A stretch of 64,000 nucleotides of DNA from the IMG/VR virus record IMGVR_UViG_3300025704_002294, positions 1 through 64,000 of that record; one strand, 5' to 3'. Positions 10,223 to 60,999 of the stretch are shown one piece after another; position 1 is the first letter of the stretch; each line of letters begins with the position of its first letter. Below the pieces are notes generated by a model. It was not told the origin of the DNA. It searched no databases and worked only from the letters and a program-made list of their open reading frames with translations. Both the position numbers and the translations under genes were made by a program. This DNA is from a virus.

Positions 10223-10684
10223 ATGGCAACTTGGTATAACGAGGTAGTATCTGATTTAAGCAAAATGGTTGATGCCATTGCTTACTATGAGAACGAACTA
10301 GAAGACGCCAAGTATGAATGCAGAATAAAGGGAAGCCTGGAAAAAGCCAGTGCTTCTCTTCCCGGTATTACAGAGTTTCGCTTCAATCAACTACAAGAGA
10401 TTGAAGCAATTCTCGAACATTTAAATATAGAATTGCGTAAAGAAAGATCAAAAACTTTTCGTAAATTTCTAGAATCTTATAATAGGCAACTCTCTAGTAG
10501 AGACGCAGAAAAGTTCGTAGATAGTGAACAAAGTGTTATAGATTTAACACATCTTACAAATCAGTTTTCTCTTTTGCGTAATAAATACCTAGGCATTATG
10601 AAAGGATTAGATACAAAGCAATGGCAAATAGGACACATAACAAGATTGAGAACAGCGGGAATGGAAGACATAATGATAGGGTAA
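10223..10684 (+). CDS. uvsY: UvsY-like recombination mediator
   Basis: 153 residues, close to T4 UvsY (137). It is almost all helical with a Lys/Arg-rich middle (RKERSKTFRKFL, about residues 73-84). The C-terminal segment (WQIGHITRLRTAG) resembles the conserved end of UvsY proteins. UvsY loads UvsX onto gp32-coated DNA, and its position directly after uvsX fits. The last 64 bases overlap the next gene in another frame. Confidence 0.75.
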   Translation: MATWYNEVVSDLSKMVDAIAYYENELEDAKYECRIKGSLEKASASLPGITEFRFNQLQEIEAILEHLNIELRKERSKTFRKFLESYNRQLSSRDAEKFVDSEQSVIDLTHLTNQFSLLRNKYLGIMKGLDTKQWQIGHITRLRTAGMEDIMIG

Positions 10685-11841
10685 CATTCTTTTACAGACT
10701 CAATAAGTGTGAAGAACGTAGCCGTAGGAACTTTGAAAATTTTACTGAAACCCTAACCTCAGATTTACAACAATACTGCAAAGAGAATCCTCGCAGAGAT
10801 AATATACATGTATATTTTGAATACACTCAAGAAGGGACCTTATGGGTAGTAGACAATAAATGGTTTGCTGATGCAATACATAATTTTGCAAACAAGTATA
10901 ATATACCCTTATCTAATATTACATATCATGGCGGAGCCGCAACATTAGAAAAGTCATACAACACATGGCACTCTATATACAGACCAAACGAAGATAAAAT
11001 AAAACTAAGACATACTGATTTTGGACTTTGGCTATATGAAAAAAATAATGTGTATTTTGATATTTTAAAATTTCCAAAAGAAACACATACTAATTTAAGA
11101 ACAAAAAAGTTTAATTGTCTGAATGCTAATTTAAACATACAGCACAGGATAGCATTCCTGCACTATATGTGGAAGAACAACTTATTAGATACAGAAAACA
11201 ATCTTATAAGTTTCCATTATTTTCAAGGTATGCATTATCCAATAGAAGAACAATACCCTATTCCACAAGAACTAAAAGATATCCTACCTATCCAATTTGA
11301 TCTAAAAGGAAATTGGGAACAGGTATATAAAAAAATATTTGACAGCAAACACGACCCAAGTGTATTAACAGATTGGAATAAAACAGGAGATTACAGTTAC
11401 ATATATGATGATTGTTACTTTACTGTAACTACAGAAAGTGGCGAATGTGTGCACCTTTGTAACGAATTCTGTGAAGATGGATTAGATGACTACTTTAGGC
11501 GTTTTCATAATGAAATATTTATTACTGAAAAAACAACAAGGCCCATGCTTTATTTACATCCTCAAATTTTATATTCTAGCTCAGGAACATTAGAGTATTT
11601 AAAAAGTTGGGGGTTTAAAACATTTAGTAATTATTGGAATGAAGATTACGATAATGAAACAAATGGAAACAAAAAACTTCAAATGATAATGGACGTTGTA
11701 AGAGAACTTAACAATAAACCATTAGAGGAGTTACATGAGATGTATTGGGATATGATGCCAATACTTAAACACAACCAAAAGATACTGATTAACACCGACA
11801 TAGAAAAGTATGAAAATAATGTTTTTCCGCTTGACTTATAG
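10621..11841 (+). CDS. Glycosyltransferase-like phage protein (paralogue A)
   Basis: 406 residues. The only in-frame ATG overlaps uvsY by 64 bases; the true start may be a non-ATG codon nearer 10685. The C-terminal third holds IFITEKTTRPMLYLHPQIL followed by a GTLEYLKSWGFKTF segment. This resembles the donor-site region of GT10-type fucosyltransferases (F-x-TEK ... P-x-x-Y/G). The N-terminal half is poorly conserved in appearance. A related protein lies at 41796 with the same FLTEK block. Virion or host-surface glycosylation is possible; donor and acceptor are unknown. Confidence 0.5.
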   Translation: MANRTHNKIENSGNGRHNDRVTFFYRLNKCEERSRRNFENFTETLTSDLQQYCKENPRRDNIHVYFEYTQEGTLWVVDNKWFADAIHNFANKYNIPLSNITYHGGAATLEKSYNTWHSIYRPNEDKIKLRHTDFGLWLYEKNNVYFDILKFPKETHTNLRTKKFNCLNANLNIQHRIAFLHYMWKNNLLDTENNLISFHYFQGMHYPIEEQYPIPQELKDILPIQFDLKGNWEQVYKKIFDSKHDPSVLTDWNKTGDYSYIYDDCYFTVTTESGECVHLCNEFCEDGLDDYFRRFHNEIFITEKTTRPMLYLHPQILYSSSGTLEYLKSWGFKTFSNYWNEDYDNETNGNKKLQMIMDVVRELNNKPLEELHEMYWDMMPILKHNQKILINTDIEKYENNVFPLDL

Positions 11842-11858
11842 TGAAAAGAATGTATAAT
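11831..11858 (+). promoter_or_regulatory. Sigma70-type promoter for the TonB receptor gene
   Basis: TTGACT at 11831-11836, a 16-base spacer, and TATAAT at 11853-11858. It overlaps the end of the upstream gene and lies 22 bases before the ATG, with a TGGAG ribosome site between. Confidence 0.7.
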
Positions 11859-11880
11859 ATTATTTTAAATTGGAGATAAA

Positions 11881-13881
11881 ATGAATTTTGAAGAATTTTT
11901 TTACAAACACATATTAAAGATTGCAATTATATTATCTTTACCGCTTTTTACTGCATGGGCATTTGCAGATGATATAGAAGAAATTGTTGTGACAGCACAA
12001 CAAGAAAAAACAATTAAAGCAAACCCAATTACAAGCAGTAGAATTATAAGTGCAATACTTCCAGGATTTACTTATAATGCAGGTGGTTATGGAGGATTTA
12101 TTGGATTTGCAGAACGTGGAGCACAAACAAACCATACATCTGTATTCGTAAATGGAATACCAGCAAATGACCCAGGAGCAGGATGGTATGACTTTGGTCA
12201 TGATATGGCTAACGGACAAACAGTAAAAGTTATTACTGGTTCTAATAGTGTGCTATATGGTTCAGGCAGTATGGCAGGAACAGTATTAATACAAGATACT
12301 ATTGAACATGGTATTACAGTTAGAACTGAAGATGCTGACCCTACATATATAAGAATTGCTCCAACAGATTTTATAGAATTTTCTACATTTGATGACAGTA
12401 TGGGTAGTGTAAGAAACGATAACGAAGAAATAGATAATTATAAAAACAGGACAGCAAGATTAAATGTTGACGTAGGCGACTTTACTATTGTAGGTAAGTT
12501 TACTGAATACGAATACGACTATGATAATTGTTATGATTATGATTTTGGGCAAAGCAATGACTGTTTACAAGACGGCGAAAGATACAACATAGCAATTAGG
12601 AATGACTTTATGACTATAGGTCGTAACTATAATAATGCAGACTATTTCACGGTTGAAGACCCAACCTATTCAAATGAGAGTTTTAGAGACTTTGCAAGAT
12701 TTGGTAGCAATTTAGATCTTAGTAATAAAATAAATGTTGCATTTGGTGTTGATATGGAGAAGATCTATTACAACACTATCAGTTGGCAAAATATTGAAGG
12801 ATCTACAGTTGTAGAAACAGAAAACACAGAACCAGGCATATGGTATGCTGAAGACGATACAAACAAAAGTAGACCAATGTGGACAGGTATCTATATAGGC
12901 ACAGGCGAATTTACTAGTGAAACAGTAGGCAACGGTGTGTATACTCTTACTGAAATAGAAGAAAAATACACAGACGAAAATGCTGGACTATACTTTTCTG
13001 CTAATGCTAAATTTATATTAGATTATAACTTTGGTATAAGAGTAGGAAACGATGATCAAAATGCTCTTAGACTTGGTATAAGTAAAGGCGAATGGTTTGT
13101 AAATATCGGCAATAGTTTTAGAAGGCCAAACTTATATGAACTTAATGGTGACGGTTATGTTGAAGGAAATGCTGAATTAATGCCAGAAGAAGCAGTTGGC
13201 ATAGAAATAGGCTATGGTGCTATTAGTGTTTATAGATACGATTTCCAAGAAGCAATAGAATATATTCCTGGATATAACACAGATATTAATACTACATCTA
13301 CTGTATTAGATAGTGACAAAACCTTAAATTTAATAGGAGCAAATCCTGAAGCACCAGATCCAACTTATGTATCTTGTGTGTTAAATCCGAATTGGAACGA
13401 TAACGACGAAGCAACATTTGATCTTCCTGGATGTATATATAAAAATGTAACTACTACAACATCAATATGGAATTCACCAACATACATCAACACAGGAGCC
13501 TATGTAACACAAGGTTTAAGGTATAGTAATAACTTTGGTCCAATGTTTGTAAGTTTAAAATACACAGACACAGAACAAACAAGAATACCTAAATATATTG
13601 GAGTATTACAATTTACTCATGCATTTAATAATGGCGTAAATGTAAGGTTAAAGTATGCAGTCCAGTTAGATAGAGCACCCGGACAATATGATGTATTAAT
13701 GGAAGGTCAAGAATTTTTAGAAGACCTGCAAAAAGTAGACTTATATATAACTAAAGTATTTGAAAATGGTATAACATTGTCATTCAAAGGAGAAAACCTC
13801 ACAGACGAAGTTGTTGAAGTTGTTCCAATGTATAATACACAAGGAACAGAATATTACTTGACACTTGGGTATAAATGGTAG
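11881..13881 (+). CDS. TonB-dependent outer-membrane receptor
   Basis: 666 residues, the size of bacterial TonB-dependent transporters. A Sec signal peptide (about 1-29; hydrophobic core then AWAFA|DD) precedes a TonB-box-like DDIEEIVVTAQ. A plug domain follows, with RGAQTNHTSVFVNGIP and VKVITGSNSVLYGSG, the classic plug segments. The rest is a long beta-barrel of alternating hydrophobic strands, with the late motif FKGENLTDE and an aromatic C-terminus (YKW). Such receptors import iron complexes, cobalamin or sugars. It lies between uvsY and uvsW genes with its own strong early-type promoter and SD, so it is a stable phage gene. It may change uptake or block the host's own phage receptor; the ligand is unknown. 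Confidence 0.9.
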   Translation: MNFEEFFYKHILKIAIILSLPLFTAWAFADDIEEIVVTAQQEKTIKANPITSSRIISAILPGFTYNAGGYGGFIGFAERGAQTNHTSVFVNGIPANDPGAGWYDFGHDMANGQTVKVITGSNSVLYGSGSMAGTVLIQDTIEHGITVRTEDADPTYIRIAPTDFIEFSTFDDSMGSVRNDNEEIDNYKNRTARLNVDVGDFTIVGKFTEYEYDYDNCYDYDFGQSNDCLQDGERYNIAIRNDFMTIGRNYNNADYFTVEDPTYSNESFRDFARFGSNLDLSNKINVAFGVDMEKIYYNTISWQNIEGSTVVETENTEPGIWYAEDDTNKSRPMWTGIYIGTGEFTSETVGNGVYTLTEIEEKYTDENAGLYFSANAKFILDYNFGIRVGNDDQNALRLGISKGEWFVNIGNSFRRPNLYELNGDGYVEGNAELMPEEAVGIEIGYGAISVYRYDFQEAIEYIPGYNTDINTTSTVLDSDKTLNLIGANPEAPDPTYVSCVLNPNWNDNDEATFDLPGCIYKNVTTTTSIWNSPTYINTGAYVTQGLRYSNNFGPMFVSLKYTDTEQTRIPKYIGVLQFTHAFNNGVNVRLKYAVQLDRAPGQYDVLMEGQEFLEDLQKVDLYITKVFENGITLSFKGENLTDEVVEVVPMYNTQGTEYYLTLGYKW

Positions 13882-13887
13882 TATAAT
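13858..13887 (+). promoter_or_regulatory. Sigma70-type promoter near uvsW
   Basis: TTGACA at 13858-13863, an 18-base spacer, and TATAAT at 13882-13887, directly against the ATG at 13888. A normal start site would lie inside that small ORF, so the promoter probably serves uvsW. Confidence 0.55.
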
Positions 13888-14076
13888 ATGAAAATGGATT
13901 GGCTACAATGTTGTTTATGTGATGAAGTTATGGAAGACTTTATGATATCACACAACCCTCAACCACTTTCAGACAACCCAGCAGATAGATGTTGTGCAAA
14001 ATGTAACATGGACAAAGTTATTCCTGCTAGACTGGCACCCGATAACAATATTCAGAGAACCCAACCGCATGAATAA
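13888..14076 (+). CDS. Small zinc-ribbon-like protein
   Basis: 62 residues with CCLC near the N-terminus and CCAKC about 25 residues later. This paired Cys arrangement could bind one zinc. It is typical of small phage zinc-ribbon proteins of unknown role. It overlaps uvsW by 8 bases. A sigma70-type TATAAT box directly abuts its ATG, so expression must come from upstream readthrough or a downstream in-frame start. Confidence 0.6.
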   Translation: MKMDWLQCCLCDEVMEDFMISHNPQPLSDNPADRCCAKCNMDKVIPARLAPDNNIQRTQPHE

Positions 14077-15526
14077 ATGTGTATTAGAAATTAGAGACGA
14101 AGTTAATGTTAGGTTTGTTGGACTTGATGTTAAAACTAGGCGTAAAATTTCAGATGAAGTAAAATACTTTTTGCCGTATGCATATCATATGCCTGCTTAT
14201 AAATTAGGAAGATGGGACGGTTGTATTAGATTTTGTGACATTGGCGGTAGAACATATTTTCATTTACTAGAAAGACTTTTACCTATAGTTGCAAATGATG
14301 GATATGATATAGAAGTAAAAGATTTGCGTAAATCTTGGAATTTTAATTTTAACAAAGTAGAACAGACCGATTATGAGCATATTGCTTGGCCTCCAAGACA
14401 TCCTGTTGCAGGAACTCCAATTATTTTAAGAGACTATCAAGTAGATGTTATTAATAAATTTTTAGAAAATCCTCAATGCCTACAAGAAGTGGCCACAGGT
14501 GCTGGTAAAACATTAGTAACAGCAGTTTTAAGTCATAAATGTGAACCATATGGTAGAACTATTGTAATTGTTCCTAACAAAGATTTAGTAGTGCAAACAG
14601 AAAAAGATTATAAAAACTTAGGTTTAGATGTAGGTGTATTTTTTGGAGATAGAAAAGAATATAACAAAACACACACTATTTGCACATGGCAAAGTCTAAG
14701 TATATTAGAGAAGAAAACAAAAGCACACGAAGCCGAATTTCCAATAGAAGAATTCTTAGATGGTGTAGTATGTATTATGGTCGACGAAGTGCATAAAGCA
14801 AAAGCAGATGTATTAAGAAATTTATTAGGTGGTGTGTTTGCTAGTGTTCCAATTCGTTGGGGTTTAACAGGAACTATTCCCAAAGACGATCACGAAGCAG
14901 TTAGCACATTCTGTAGTTTAGGACCTGTAGTTGGAAATCTTAGCAGTAAAGAATTACAAGATATAGGTGTATTAGCAGATTTAGATGTAAATATTTTTCA
15001 ATTGCAAGATGGCGTATTAGGATTTAATAGTTATGCACAAGAATTAAAATGGCTCCTTACTGATAATAAACGCATTGATCACATCAGTGAGATTATAAAA
15101 GGTTTAGCAACAAGTGGTAATACACTTGTATTGATAGACAGAATTAAAACAGGCGAGATGCTAATAGAAAGAAACGACGATTGGGTATTTGTAAGTGGTA
15201 AAATGAAAACCACAGATAGACAAGACGAATATGCAGAAATTAGTGAGATGGACAATAAAGTTATTGTTGCAACATATGGTGTTGCCGCTGTTGGTATTAA
15301 CATACCTAGGATATTTAACCTTGTTATGTTAGAGCCAGGAAAGAGTTTTGTTCGTGTAATACAAAGTATCGGAAGAGGTATTCGTAAAGCAGAGGACAAA
15401 GATTATGTGCAAGTGGTTGACATCACGAGCAATTTAAAGTATAGTAAAAGACACCTTACAAAAAGAAAGCAGTTCTATAAAGAACAGAACTTTAGACATA
15501 AGGTAACAAAGGTTGAATATAAATGA
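14069..15526 (+). CDS. uvsW: UvsW helicase (SF2)
   Basis: 485 residues from ATG 14069. An earlier in-frame ATG at 13994 would add 25 residues inside the zinc-ribbon gene and is less likely. SF2 motifs are in order: ATGAGKT (motif I), VDEVHKAK (DEVH box, motif II), LTGTIPK (III) and QSIGRGIRK (VI). The N-terminal about 100 residues hold the small DNA-binding domain of UvsW, containing LGRWDG. UvsW unwinds R-loops and branched DNA and moves phages from origin- to recombination-dependent replication. It overlaps the next gene by 4 bases. Confidence 0.93.
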   Translation: MNKCVLEIRDEVNVRFVGLDVKTRRKISDEVKYFLPYAYHMPAYKLGRWDGCIRFCDIGGRTYFHLLERLLPIVANDGYDIEVKDLRKSWNFNFNKVEQTDYEHIAWPPRHPVAGTPIILRDYQVDVINKFLENPQCLQEVATGAGKTLVTAVLSHKCEPYGRTIVIVPNKDLVVQTEKDYKNLGLDVGVFFGDRKEYNKTHTICTWQSLSILEKKTKAHEAEFPIEEFLDGVVCIMVDEVHKAKADVLRNLLGGVFASVPIRWGLTGTIPKDDHEAVSTFCSLGPVVGNLSSKELQDIGVLADLDVNIFQLQDGVLGFNSYAQELKWLLTDNKRIDHISEIIKGLATSGNTLVLIDRIKTGEMLIERNDDWVFVSGKMKTTDRQDEYAEISEMDNKVIVATYGVAAVGINIPRIFNLVMLEPGKSFVRVIQSIGRGIRKAEDKDYVQVVDITSNLKYSKRHLTKRKQFYKEQNFRHKVTKVEYK

Positions 15527-16029: not shown

Positions 16030-16809
16030 ATGGCAAAAAGAAAATTTAGAATAGAAGGCGGCAGATACGGAGGAGAACTTGTTTTAGGAGAAGTAAATCC
16101 AGCATTTGTCAGTTATTACGCAGAACTAGATGACACCAGTGCGTTAGTTGATGCTGTATTAGAATCCGATCAAGGCGGTTGGGAAGAAGAGGACGAACCT
16201 GCAGATGCATTATTAGATCCTAATACTCCTCCAGGTCCTGCTACAGATGAAGACGATTACTTCAATATGTGGGAAAATGATGGGTTTGAACACATTAATA
16301 GTGCCTACGCAGATGGAGGCTTTACAGTATATGAAGTTCCAGCAGATGGTTCAGATGATTGGTCCTATGATAAAGAAGTATATGAAGGGGAAGCCATTCA
16401 TGTATATGGTAGAGAAGGTGGATACTTTAGCACAGACGATGAGCCAGAAGTAATAAACGAAGAAGATGAAGACGGCAACAAATATGTGCCTGTTTTAATG
16501 TTTCACAGTTGTGAGAAGGGTTCTTTTGGTGCTTGGTTTGTAGACTCAGATGAAGATTTTGATGAGTTTAAACTTGGAATGGGTGTTGTGGAAACAAATT
16601 TAGGTGAATTTGTTGATGCTGTATTTTACGATAAACTAGAATTAGATTGTGATTACGATTATAATGACACAACCGGTAAAAGTTATGATGCTCAGGTTGG
16701 CTGGTTAAATACTAAGTGGCATGACAGTCAAGATCTTATGCATGAAAACTTAGATGAATATCTTGCAGAGTTTGAAGAAAATGCAGAATGGGAAAGAGAA
16801 AATAGATGA
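16030..16809 (+). CDS. Very acidic hypothetical protein
   Basis: 259 residues with dense Asp/Glu clusters (EEEDEPAD, about 59-66; NEEDEDGN, about 143-150) and many Tyr/Trp residues. It has an AGGAGG site just upstream of the ATG. The basic N-terminus (MAKRKFR) contrasts with the rest. Such charge could mimic DNA or bind cations, but no known mimic family is recognised. It overlaps the next gene by 4 bases. Confidence 0.6.
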   Translation: MAKRKFRIEGGRYGGELVLGEVNPAFVSYYAELDDTSALVDAVLESDQGGWEEEDEPADALLDPNTPPGPATDEDDYFNMWENDGFEHINSAYADGGFTVYEVPADGSDDWSYDKEVYEGEAIHVYGREGGYFSTDDEPEVINEEDEDGNKYVPVLMFHSCEKGSFGAWFVDSDEDFDEFKLGMGVVETNLGEFVDAVFYDKLELDCDYDYNDTTGKSYDAQVGWLNTKWHDSQDLMHENLDEYLAEFEENAEWERENR

Positions 16810-17609
16810 AGCGAATTTTAATTTTTGGCCTACCAGGCTCAGGTAAATCTACTTTAGCAAAAAGACTAGTTGAAATATTAGGTAATGCTGATTGGCACAA
16901 CGCAGACAAAATACGTGAAACATTTAATGATTGGGACTTTTCGCCTGAGGGTAGAGAACGCCAATCATTACGAATGAGAGATTATGTCCGCAAAAGTGTT
17001 GCTAAAGGAAATTATGGTGTAGCAGACTTTGTTTGCCCAACAAATGAACTTCGTGAAAAAAATGTCCCTGAATATGTAATTTGGATGGATACAATTGAAG
17101 AAGGTAGATTTGAAGACACTAATAAAATGTTTGAAAAACCTACAATAGATAGTGTTACAATTAATGCTGTAATTAAAGCAGAAGAGTGGTGGACAGAAGA
17201 AAAATGCGAGGAATGGGCAAGGCTACTTGCAGTTGATATTAAAGATCATGAGTTTCAGCCAAAGCAACCAACTACACAAATGTTAGGGAGATTTCAGCCT
17301 TGGCATGAAGGACATCAAAAGTTGTTTGAAAGAGCATTAGCGAAACATGGACAAGTAGCATTACTTGTTAGAGATATGCCATTAACAGATGACAATCCCT
17401 GGCAAGTAGATAAGATATGTGAAAACATTGAAATAGCATTGGCCGAACATGCTGGTAAATTTAGATGTTATCCTGTGCCTAATATTATGAATATTACTTA
17501 TGGCAGAGGTGTAGGTTATAAGATTGAAGAGGAAGTTCTTGATGAGGAAACGCAAAAAATTAGTGCAACTAAAATCAGAGAACAGATGAGAAAGGATGGA
17601 GAACTATAA
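16806..17609 (+). CDS. Fused P-loop kinase and nucleotidyltransferase (APS-kinase-like + NMNAT-like)
   Basis: 267 residues. The N-terminal domain (1-about 125) has P-loop GLPGSGKST (8-16). Its next block, with NADKIR and SPEGRERQSLRM, parallels the D-x-x-x-R and F-S-x-x-x-R motifs of adenylylsulfate kinases. The C-terminal domain (about 157-267) has GRFQPWHEGH with the HxGH signature (167-170) and ISATKIR (252-258), the ISTTxIR-type motif of adenylyl/cytidylyl transferases such as NMN adenylyltransferase. NadR has the reverse order. Possible roles are NAD salvage, sulfate activation, or modification of a nucleotide or tail sugar; the substrate cannot be read from sequence. It overlaps both neighbours. 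Confidence 0.75.
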   Translation: MKRILIFGLPGSGKSTLAKRLVEILGNADWHNADKIRETFNDWDFSPEGRERQSLRMRDYVRKSVAKGNYGVADFVCPTNELREKNVPEYVIWMDTIEEGRFEDTNKMFEKPTIDSVTINAVIKAEEWWTEEKCEEWARLLAVDIKDHEFQPKQPTTQMLGRFQPWHEGHQKLFERALAKHGQVALLVRDMPLTDDNPWQVDKICENIEIALAEHAGKFRCYPVPNIMNITYGRGVGYKIEEEVLDEETQKISATKIREQMRKDGEL

Positions 17610-22638: not shown

Positions 22639-22666
22639 TTGACATATTAAATATATCCTGTATAAT
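22639..22666 (+). promoter_or_regulatory. Sigma70-type promoter for gp61-gp41
   Basis: TTGACA at 22639-22644, a 16-base spacer, TATAAT at 22661-22666, and the primase ATG 6 bases later at 22673. The start site lies essentially at the ATG, so this transcript too may be leaderless. Confidence 0.75.
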
Positions 22667-43267: not shown

Positions 43268-43423
43268 ATGCGTATAAAAGAGGTTGACATAAACATAGAT
43301 TCGTTCTATAATAGTATCAATGAAACAGTAGCAGGTGCTATTGGTGGCGTGGCAATGCCTCTATTCAAAGAACCAATAAAACGCAAGCCTACTAAGAAAA
43401 AGAAGAAAAAGAAAAATGCGTAG
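43268..43423 (+). CDS. 51-residue basic protein with targeting-like N-terminus
   Basis: A short gene, supported by a late promoter at the standard N5 distance. The N-terminus MRIKEVDINI resembles those of the SOD fusion and the ligase-like protein, and INE occurs at 17-19. The C-terminal third is a Lys-rich tail (KRKPTKKKKKKKNA). It may be a small internal DNA-binding protein. A consensus sigma70 promoter lies inside the gene at 43284-43312. It overlaps the next gene by 8 bases. Confidence 0.55.
   Translation: MRIKEVDINIDSFYNSINETVAGAIGGVAMPLFKEPIKRKPTKKKKKKKNA
43284..43312 (+). promoter_or_regulatory. Consensus sigma70 promoter inside a small gene
   Basis: TTGACA at 43284-43289, exactly 17 bases, then TATAAT at 43307-43312: a perfect match in sequence and spacing. 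It would transcribe the genes at 43416 and 43591 independently of the late promoter. Confidence 0.65.
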
Positions 43424-56247: not shown

Positions 56248-56724
56248 GTGGAAACAACCAATATATCATTTGAAACTATTTGTCACGTATGGCAGAAACA
56301 TTTATGGCAAAATAGAGTAAGTCCAATTGAAACCCATAGTGCTATGACTTGGCCATATGATGGAAATCCACTAGAATTTGACATGGATATTTTTGACTAT
56401 GAGCCTTCATTTTTTGGTGTAATTACAAATGGTAGAGTTGTTGGTGTAAACAGCGGCCACAGAACAAAAGACAATATTTATAGAAGCAGGGGAATTTGGG
56501 TTGACCATGATGTTAGAAAAAAAGGTGTTGCTCAATTACTATTTAATGCTACAGAAAAACAAGCAATCAAAGAAGGTTGTAATATGATATGGAGCATACC
56601 TCGTAAAAGTGCCTTACCGGCATATACTAAATTTGGCTTTGAAACTATAGGTAACTTTTTTGATGAAGGCATGGAGTTTGGGCCTAACATTTATGTGACT
56701 AAGGTGTTAAATGTATCCAACTAA
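56248..56724 (+). CDS. GNAT-family acetyltransferase
   Basis: 158 residues with a GTG start. IWVDHDVRKKGVAQLLFNATEK is the acetyl-CoA motif A pattern (V-x-x-x-x-R-x-x-G-x-A), with KKG and the following helix. YTKFGFETIG is the motif B end of the fold. Members acetylate amines on small molecules, sugars or protein N-termini. It overlaps the radical SAM gene by 14 bases, so the pair is probably made together. The substrate cannot be read. Confidence 0.85.
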   Translation: METTNISFETICHVWQKHLWQNRVSPIETHSAMTWPYDGNPLEFDMDIFDYEPSFFGVITNGRVVGVNSGHRTKDNIYRSRGIWVDHDVRKKGVAQLLFNATEKQAIKEGCNMIWSIPRKSALPAYTKFGFETIGNFFDEGMEFGPNIYVTKVLNVSN

Positions 56725-57730
56725 AGTACACGGACCACGTCCGGAGCACCTGCCTAAAGACATTACTATACAATGGAGCATGGGAAACAGTTGTAACTTT
56801 GAATGTGAATACTGCCCTACCCAATTACACGATGGCAGTTTAGGTTGGCACGACACAAACAAGTATATTGATATAATAGAAAAAATATGTAAACACTATC
56901 AAGAACAAGACAAAGTAGTAAACTTTGAATTTATTGGCGGTGAAGTCACAGTTATACCTGGCTTTATTGATATACTAGAAAAAGTAAAAGAGTACAACGG
57001 ACACAATATAATTTTTACAAATGGTAGCAGAACAGTTAATTGGTGGAGCAAAGCAAAGCATTTAATTGATGACTTAGTTATCAGTTACCACCCACAATCA
57101 ATGGATGAAGACTCGCTTATAGAAATTGCAGAAGAAATAAAAGACTCAGTATATACAAGTTATCAATTAGCAGGTGTAAAAGATTACTTACCTAGATTAG
57201 AACTGTTAGCAGAGAGGCTTAGAACAGTATATAAGCATAGTACAGTACAAGACTACTGGGGTGTTAATATTGCAATAAAAACCATGTACAAAAAACTATT
57301 AGGTCCAGGTGCTAAACAAGATACATTTTATGACTATAGTGGCAATGATTGGCGTATTTTAAATTTACCTACATGGAAAGAAAATCCAGACACGCCCCCA
57401 CCACCACCAGATCCAAATGCACCGCCTCCACCAGAGCCGCACCCAGGTAGATTTTTATTTACATACCAGACACCTGAAGAAACAAACTACTACAATGCAG
57501 ATCAAATTATGGATCAAGGACTAAACAAATTTCAGGGAATGATGTGCCACATAGGTGAGCGAGGTTTTAATATCGACATGCGTGGCAACATTGTTAGCAG
57601 TTGGTGTGGTGCAAAAACTTACGGAAATGTATTTGAAAAAGATTTTGAATTACCTACACCTGATGGTGTAGTGTGTCCACATGAACATTGTAATAATCCA
57701 AAAGATATCCAGATTCTCAAAACTGCCTAA
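56711..57730 (+). CDS. Radical SAM enzyme with proline-rich insertion
   Basis: 339 residues. NSCNFECEYC gives C-x3-C-x2-C (28, 32, 35), the ligands of the SAM-binding [4Fe-4S] cluster. FEFIGGEVTVIP has the GGE motif. The C-terminal part carries a second Cys set (MMCHIGERGF, SSWCGAK, VVCPHEHC) that could bind an auxiliary cluster, as in SPASM-type maturases. A long proline-rich loop (about 222-240) interrupts the fold. Such enzymes modify peptides or install unusual bonds. With the GNAT gene it may make a modified peptide or tail product, which is inference. Confidence 0.85.
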   Translation: MYPTKVHGPRPEHLPKDITIQWSMGNSCNFECEYCPTQLHDGSLGWHDTNKYIDIIEKICKHYQEQDKVVNFEFIGGEVTVIPGFIDILEKVKEYNGHNIIFTNGSRTVNWWSKAKHLIDDLVISYHPQSMDEDSLIEIAEEIKDSVYTSYQLAGVKDYLPRLELLAERLRTVYKHSTVQDYWGVNIAIKTMYKKLLGPGAKQDTFYDYSGNDWRILNLPTWKENPDTPPPPPDPNAPPPPEPHPGRFLFTYQTPEETNYYNADQIMDQGLNKFQGMMCHIGERGFNIDMRGNIVSSWCGAKTYGNVFEKDFELPTPDGVVCPHEHCNNPKDIQILKTA

Positions 57731-60970: not shown

Positions 60971-60999
60971 TTGACATATACTATAAATAGTAGTATAAT
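60971..60999 (+). promoter_or_regulatory. Perfect sigma70 promoter with overlapping late promoter
   Basis: TTGACA at 60971-60976, exactly 17 bases, then TATAAT at 60994-60999. A late octamer TATAAATA lies within the spacer (60982-60989). Both would start just before the ATG at 61009, so the operon could be read early and late. Confidence 0.8.

Follow-up and report, generated by a model that had tools for sequence, protein, structure and literature searches.

The vitamin B12 transporter BtuB of E. coli (PDB 1nqe, 2gsk) has a signal peptide, a TonB box, a plug and a barrel, and the same parts are found in the TonB-dependent receptor (TBDR) of the phage lineage described here, for which BtuB is the best match among solved TBDRs by sequence profile together with TM-score, the latter among the matches listed. 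The phage receptor differs from BtuB in being phage-borne, in having two extra long loops and a conserved cysteine pair (217/228), and in having no riboswitch recognized at the loci scanned; identity in the profile alignment is about 25%, and the protein falls below the BtuB equivalog cut-off. Among phages, a SusC-like TBDR has been reported in the marine megaphage Mar_Mega_1 (PMC9723777), likewise a large marine phage that encodes a TBDR, although the passage of that report devoted to it gives neither locus conservation nor exchange. The only viral structure match to our receptor at E < 0.001 was BFVD A0A8D9FQQ5 (TonB-dependent receptor SusC, uncultured marine phage), which is of the SusC type, 805 aa long and remote at 9% identity. 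A protein of Pelagibacter phage Skadi-1 (OP131302) has been named TonB-dependent receptor (PMC10504331) and has only the name in common with ours (L121 28891-29337, 148 aa, no Pfam match); we set it aside as a precedent, as it is too short for a TBDR and the name is probably a misnomer. PHROG 5687 shares a plug segment with the receptor, but only about 60-80 residues of 760 are matched and its function is undescribed in PHROGs. A different kind of relation between phages and TBDRs is the blocking of FhuA by the phage protein Cor (PMC11436027); like Cor, a phage TBDR would influence how phages are received at a TBDR, whereas blockers of the Cor type inhibit a host receptor and are not whole transporters. 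The open-licence papers searched gave no account of a near-core phage gene that encodes a BtuB-like TBDR and whose alleles are exchanged. New here are the singling out of BtuB by a 46-member profile, the cassette exchange of receptor alleles and the signal-peptide swap.

The receptor gene and its locus

The window, i.e., the whole 64,000-nt stretch of viral DNA that was analyzed, is taken from a 94.2-kb IMG/VR record with terL, gp32, uvsX, uvsY and uvsW of the T4-superfamily type. A preliminary description of this DNA had claimed a complete TBDR gene, with its own promoter and Shine-Dalgarno sequence, between uvsY and uvsW. The region contains the following features.

10223-10684 (+): uvsY, conserved left neighbour, from annotation and comparison with relatives
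10621-11841 (+): 406-aa ORF in the uvsY-receptor interval, without Pfam or PHROG match, variable in relatives
11831-11858 (+): sigma70-type promoter TTGACT-16-TATAAT, upstream of the receptor
11872-11875 (+): Shine-Dalgarno sequence GGAG, read from the sequence
11881-13881 (+): complete TonB-dependent receptor, from the ORF list, Pfam, AF2 model and PDB structure matches
11881-11967 (+): signal peptide, residues 1-29, cleavage between AFA and D, read by eye; exchangeable 87-nt module
11977-11997 (+): TonB box EEIVVTA, residues 33-39, read from the sequence
11989-12282 (+): plug domain, Pfam match to residues 37-134 (PF07715), motifs ERGAQTxHT and YGSGSMAG
12307-13878 (+): beta-barrel region, about 22 predicted strands, motifs SFRxPNLYE and GNxxLxPExxxGxE, C-terminal YKW
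12775-12954 (+): long loop, residues 299-358, missing from the short allele class
13267-13473 (+): long loop, residues 463-531, with cysteine pair 499/518, missing from the short allele class
13858-13887 (+): another promoter, a perfect TTGACA-18-TATAAT, which overlaps the stop codon of the receptor and faces uvsW
13888-14076: 62-aa ORF in the receptor-uvsW interval
14072-15526 (+): uvsW helicase, conserved right neighbour (start about 14072)

The receptor ORF encodes 666 aa and opens with an ATG after TTGGAGATAAA, and the GGAG ahead of the ATG bears out the claimed Shine-Dalgarno sequence. By eye, the N-terminus reads as MNFEEFFYKHILKIAIILSLPLFTAWAFA followed by DDIEEIVVTAQ, a signal peptide whose cleavage site is AFA, with the TonB box right after it, of which E33, E34 and V37 are invariant in an alignment of 46 non-redundant phage relatives. 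The plug is matched by PF07715 with an E-value of 6.5e-12, better than the curated Pfam cut-off. The Pfam barrel model PF00593 had no match in the window TBDR, whose barrel is too divergent for that model; barrel motifs were found by eye (SFRRPNLYE, GNAELMPEEAVGIE and the final YKW), and the protein ends in an aromatic residue, W666, with a C-terminal W or Y in 38 of the 46 relatives. The preliminary description had proposed fold prediction of plug and barrel as a check. An AF2 model built on the 46 phage relatives (pLDDT 82, pTM 0.76; an earlier 17-sequence model was poor, with a pLDDT of 58) predicts a plug-in-barrel fold of about 22 strands, and when it was searched against the PDB all 50 of the 50 matches listed were TBDRs, with E-values down to 5.7e-20 and with PirA, PfeA and BtuB first. 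Given the Pfam plug, the barrel motifs and a model that matches TBDRs, the identification as a complete TBDR was right, from signal peptide to C-terminal tryptophan.

The position between uvsY and uvsW also stands, although the receptor is adjacent to neither gene: the 406-aa ORF lies on its left and the 62-aa ORF on its right. The called start of the 406-aa ORF overlaps uvsY, and other genes take its place in relatives. In most relatives (e.g., L060 5806-6849) an AAA ATPase gene (phrog_1250) precedes either the receptor or uvsW; it was not found in the window. The S-adenosylmethionine synthase gene metK is near the receptor in several relatives, though not in all. Next to metK and apt in the window (16806-17609) is a gene that fuses a P-loop kinase-like half to a nucleotidyltransferase half with weak NadR/NMN adenylyltransferase matches, so that a NAD/SAM/adenine salvage cluster is possible there. 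Further along, the product of 56711-57730 is a radical SAM protein; viperin is its top NCBIfam hit, at 6.4e-13, which does not reach the cut-off.

Transcription signals

Sites of the TTGACT-16-TATAAT type, such as the promoter at 11831-11858, number just five in the 64 kb, where 0.28 would be expected; the same early-type consensus also occurs at 22639-22666, 43284-43312 and 60971-60999. Of 58 distinct TBDR starts, 45 have the element TTGAC-(16)-TATAAT kept upstream while the spacer sequence diverges, against about 0.04 occurrences expected per upstream region from the overall density of the element, and a GC-rich stem with a T run was seen by eye ahead of the promoter in many relatives. The claim of the gene's own sigma70 promoter is thus upheld by its conservation in relatives. 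No T4-type late motif TATAAATA was found in the 200 bases upstream of the receptor. The conserved sigma70-type promoter and the absence of this late motif argue that the receptor gene is an early-type transcription unit of its own, as far as can be judged from the DNA. The second promoter, at 13858-13887, probably drives the 62-aa ORF and uvsW.

Distribution among phages

By terL, the nearest cultured phages are the PA5oct-like Pseudomonas jumbo phages (Arenbergviridae; 57%); by uvsW they are the PA5oct-like phages (about 53%) and Sinorhizobium phage Phosso (54%). The PA5oct-like phages share the recombination-gene block with the window lineage but are distant from it. The preliminary description had named three findings that would speak against a phage gene, namely a contig that is chimeric, a frameshift in other isolates and absence of the locus in related phages. 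The first is excluded by an independent 33.7-kb contig (L007), in which the TBDR and its flanks are 100% identical to the window, by a further contig (L001) at 94%, and by a 250-kb virus record (G014, IMGVR_UViG_3300020360_000085), which has a single TBDR in the same order of uvsX, uvsY, TBDR and uvsW. As to the second, a single-sequence search of IMG/VR gave 34 loci with TBDR relatives, and in all 101 distinct TBDR loci were collected, 82 of them full length, 19 ended by contig ends and none broken.

For the third, distribution was mapped by anchoring on uvsW and then reading the gene before it. Nearly all contigs spanning the interval had a TBDR directly ahead of uvsW. Counting only distinct uvsW loci whose state is known, 57 of 63 in this uncultured lineage of jumbo phages have the TBDR. 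The uvsW tree, with 69 distinct rows, comprised 57 TBDR-positive, eight negative and four undetermined rows. Among the negatives, six IMG/VR contigs group with one undetermined row in a nested clade, as if the gene had been lost once; the remaining two rows belong to cultured phages, vB_Pa-PAC2 and Phosso. In the negative contigs the AAA ATPase phrog_1250 is directly before uvsW, and in the PA5oct-like vB_Pa-PAC2 uvsY abuts uvsW, i.e., the site is empty. The TBDR is therefore a near-universal, near-core gene of an uncultured marine jumbo-phage lineage.

In another set of contigs (L003, L005, L012-L018, L021) the TBDR is found elsewhere, among baseplate genes that lie on the other strand, and in L005 (9444-9995; also L013 and L017) an MTA/SAH-nucleosidase-like gene is directly before it. 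Since a virion protein of this set was not found in the records of the uvsY-uvsW type, these contigs probably belong to a different phage lineage.

Selection and allele exchange

Against eight relatives, the dN/dS of the window TBDR was 0.18-0.30, compared with 0.04-0.14 for uvsX; the receptor is constrained by purifying selection, yet evolves faster than the replication genes. Intact copies, purifying selection and the same locus in dozens of contigs agree with the earlier view that the gene is neither host contamination nor a remnant.

Receptor and background have different histories in several pairs of contigs. In L051 and L056 the genes uvsX, uvsY, gp32, uvsW, g165, apt and metK are 96-100% identical and the TBDRs 63%, and the nucleotide profile falls in identity about 1 kb ahead of the gene and recovers at its stop. 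The reverse is seen in L044/L103 (TBDR 95%, uvsW 79%) and L009/L010 (TBDR 97%, uvsW 80%), where identity shifts near the ends of the gene for the former pair and at the stop codon for the latter. Because TBDRs of 95-97% identity are found across backgrounds whose uvsW genes are 79-80% identical, fast vertical change alone was ruled out as the source of TBDR divergence for these two pairs. By these identities and nucleotide profiles, whole TBDR alleles are swapped between phages as a cassette. The alleles form two length classes of 523-581 and 653-678 aa, which differ by the loops at 299-358 and 463-531.

A smaller module seems to move as well. The window and L001 differ sharply in the signal-peptide region only, while the window and L028 are identical over the 87-nt signal-peptide stretch, although their identity is 47% ahead of that stretch and 71% beyond it. 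In a scan of the collection an exact 91-nt stretch was found in three contigs, those of L007, L028 and L034 (window 11881-11971; L028 3534-3624; L206 533-623, - strand), so that the signal-peptide module of the window is letter for letter the same in L028 and L034, in different backgrounds. This is the pattern that an exchange of signal peptides by themselves would leave among phages. A tentative proposal, which we hold with less than even confidence, is that the fixed slot is a receptor-swapping cassette of promoter, signal peptide and BtuB-like allele, with which each phage would set the uptake and recognition phenotype of the infected cell.

Ligand class

Searched against the PDB as a single sequence, the TBDR gave no match. 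The 46-member phage profile found E. coli BtuB at E 1.3e-13, the next family being the heme receptor ShuA at 0.053, and no siderophore receptor at E < 0.1. By hhalign, the alignment to E. coli BtuB covers 507 columns from the signal peptide to the C-terminus (probability 98.7, E 4.4e-16), its loops being aligned too loosely for ligand contacts to be placed, and the best TM-scores among the matches listed were those of BtuB (2gsk, 0.64/0.71). BtuB is thus the nearest characterized and solved TBDR by profile, and our best guess from profile and model is a corrinoid-like ligand, of the BtuB class rather than a siderophore.

The receptor's scores of 26.5 and 21.2 bits lie far below the NCBIfam BtuB equivalog cut-offs of 599.7 and 836 bits (TIGR01779, NF007926). 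No cobalamin riboswitch turned up when Rfam was run over the window plus five loci; such a riboswitch is common upstream but not obligatory. The phage ribonucleotide reductase is of class Ia and has no need of B12, and none of the six phage records that were searched gave a BtuF-type binding protein (Peripla_BP_2). The 250-kb record has an open frame of 695 aa that contains a sub-threshold B12-binding domain (L200, G014 244832-245182, - strand). A link of the receptor to metK via B12-dependent methionine synthesis is speculation based on proximity. Peptide-pattern scans of genome contigs gave no cellular relative that could be the donor, and plasmids had solely plug matches to the receptor, at 25-36% identity.

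Discussion

We put at about even the chances that the receptor is a TonB-coupled importer of the BtuB type, which would be made early and would bring a scarce, probably corrinoid-like ligand to the metabolism of infection. Host RNA polymerase would transcribe the gene early from its host-type promoter; the protein would be exported by the host Sec system, inserted into the outer membrane by Bam and energized by host TonB-ExbBD, the host being the presumed energy source because no TonB_C domain is encoded in the 94-kb record of the window. The ligand, most likely a corrinoid or a similar small molecule, would be carried into the periplasm and support jumbo-phage infection metabolism, while the outer loops would be diversified and alleles, or even the signal peptide alone, traded between phages by recombination. 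The invariance of the TonB box and plug favours coupled import over a passive decoy. Against such an importer count the low BtuB scores, the lack of a detected riboswitch, the class Ia reductase and the absence of TonB_C and BtuF-type proteins from the records searched. The allele exchange with gain and loss of loops counts against it too, as a receptor conflict would fit it as well; loop diversity is predicted by both an importer and a device of superinfection control.

BtuB, FhuA and other TBDRs often serve phages as receptors, and the phage TBDR might flood the outer membrane and displace or out-compete the receptor used by rival phages or bacteriocins. The diversity of alleles would then be the signature of an arms race, and the receptors of 63% identity between flanks of 96-100% in L051/L056, the two length classes set apart by long loops, and the early-type promoter are all in keeping with this. 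However, known exclusion proteins of such a kind are small inhibitors rather than whole energized transporters, a coupled function is indicated by the plug motifs and the TonB box, which are invariant, and a new surface receptor could draw phages in instead; we regard superinfection control as the leading alternative, though rather unlikely.

An importer of iron-siderophore or heme, in place of a corrinoid, would agree with Foldseek E-values to PirA and PfeA that are as good as those to BtuB and with a match of TIGR01786 (hemoglobin/transferrin receptors) to the plug, but it is improbable given that in the profile search BtuB (1e-13) stood apart from the receptors for heme (0.05) and that no siderophore receptor came up at E < 0.1. 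A role as a virion component or adhesion protein, outside the infected-cell membrane, could be read from the place of the receptor among baseplate genes in the second lineage (L005) and from the link to reception that the Skadi authors proposed for their protein named TBDR (PMC10504331); it is very unlikely, for the protein has a Sec signal peptide, its gene has a sigma70-type promoter upstream and no TATAAATA late promoter, and in L005 it lies on the strand opposite to the baseplate genes. Marine bacteria are rich in TBDRs, so that host contamination, passive cargo or an assembly chimera might be suspected, but with the same locus in dozens of independent contigs and in the 250-kb phage record, the identical flanks in L007, no broken copies and purifying selection these are scarcely credible, and contamination and chimera were rejected.

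Most auxiliary genes of phages have their effect within the cell, whereas here a complete energized outer-membrane transporter, with exchanged alleles under purifying selection, is close to being a core gene of a widespread phage lineage. If it is a corrinoid importer, infected cells would be in competition for a vitamin that is limiting to many microbes in the sea; if it serves superinfection control, it would be a new kind of exclusion device. On either reading, phage remodelling of the host's set of outer-membrane transporters becomes a testable question that turns on one gene. The receptor swapping within this virus family suggests that these viruses re-equip the surface of the cells they infect.
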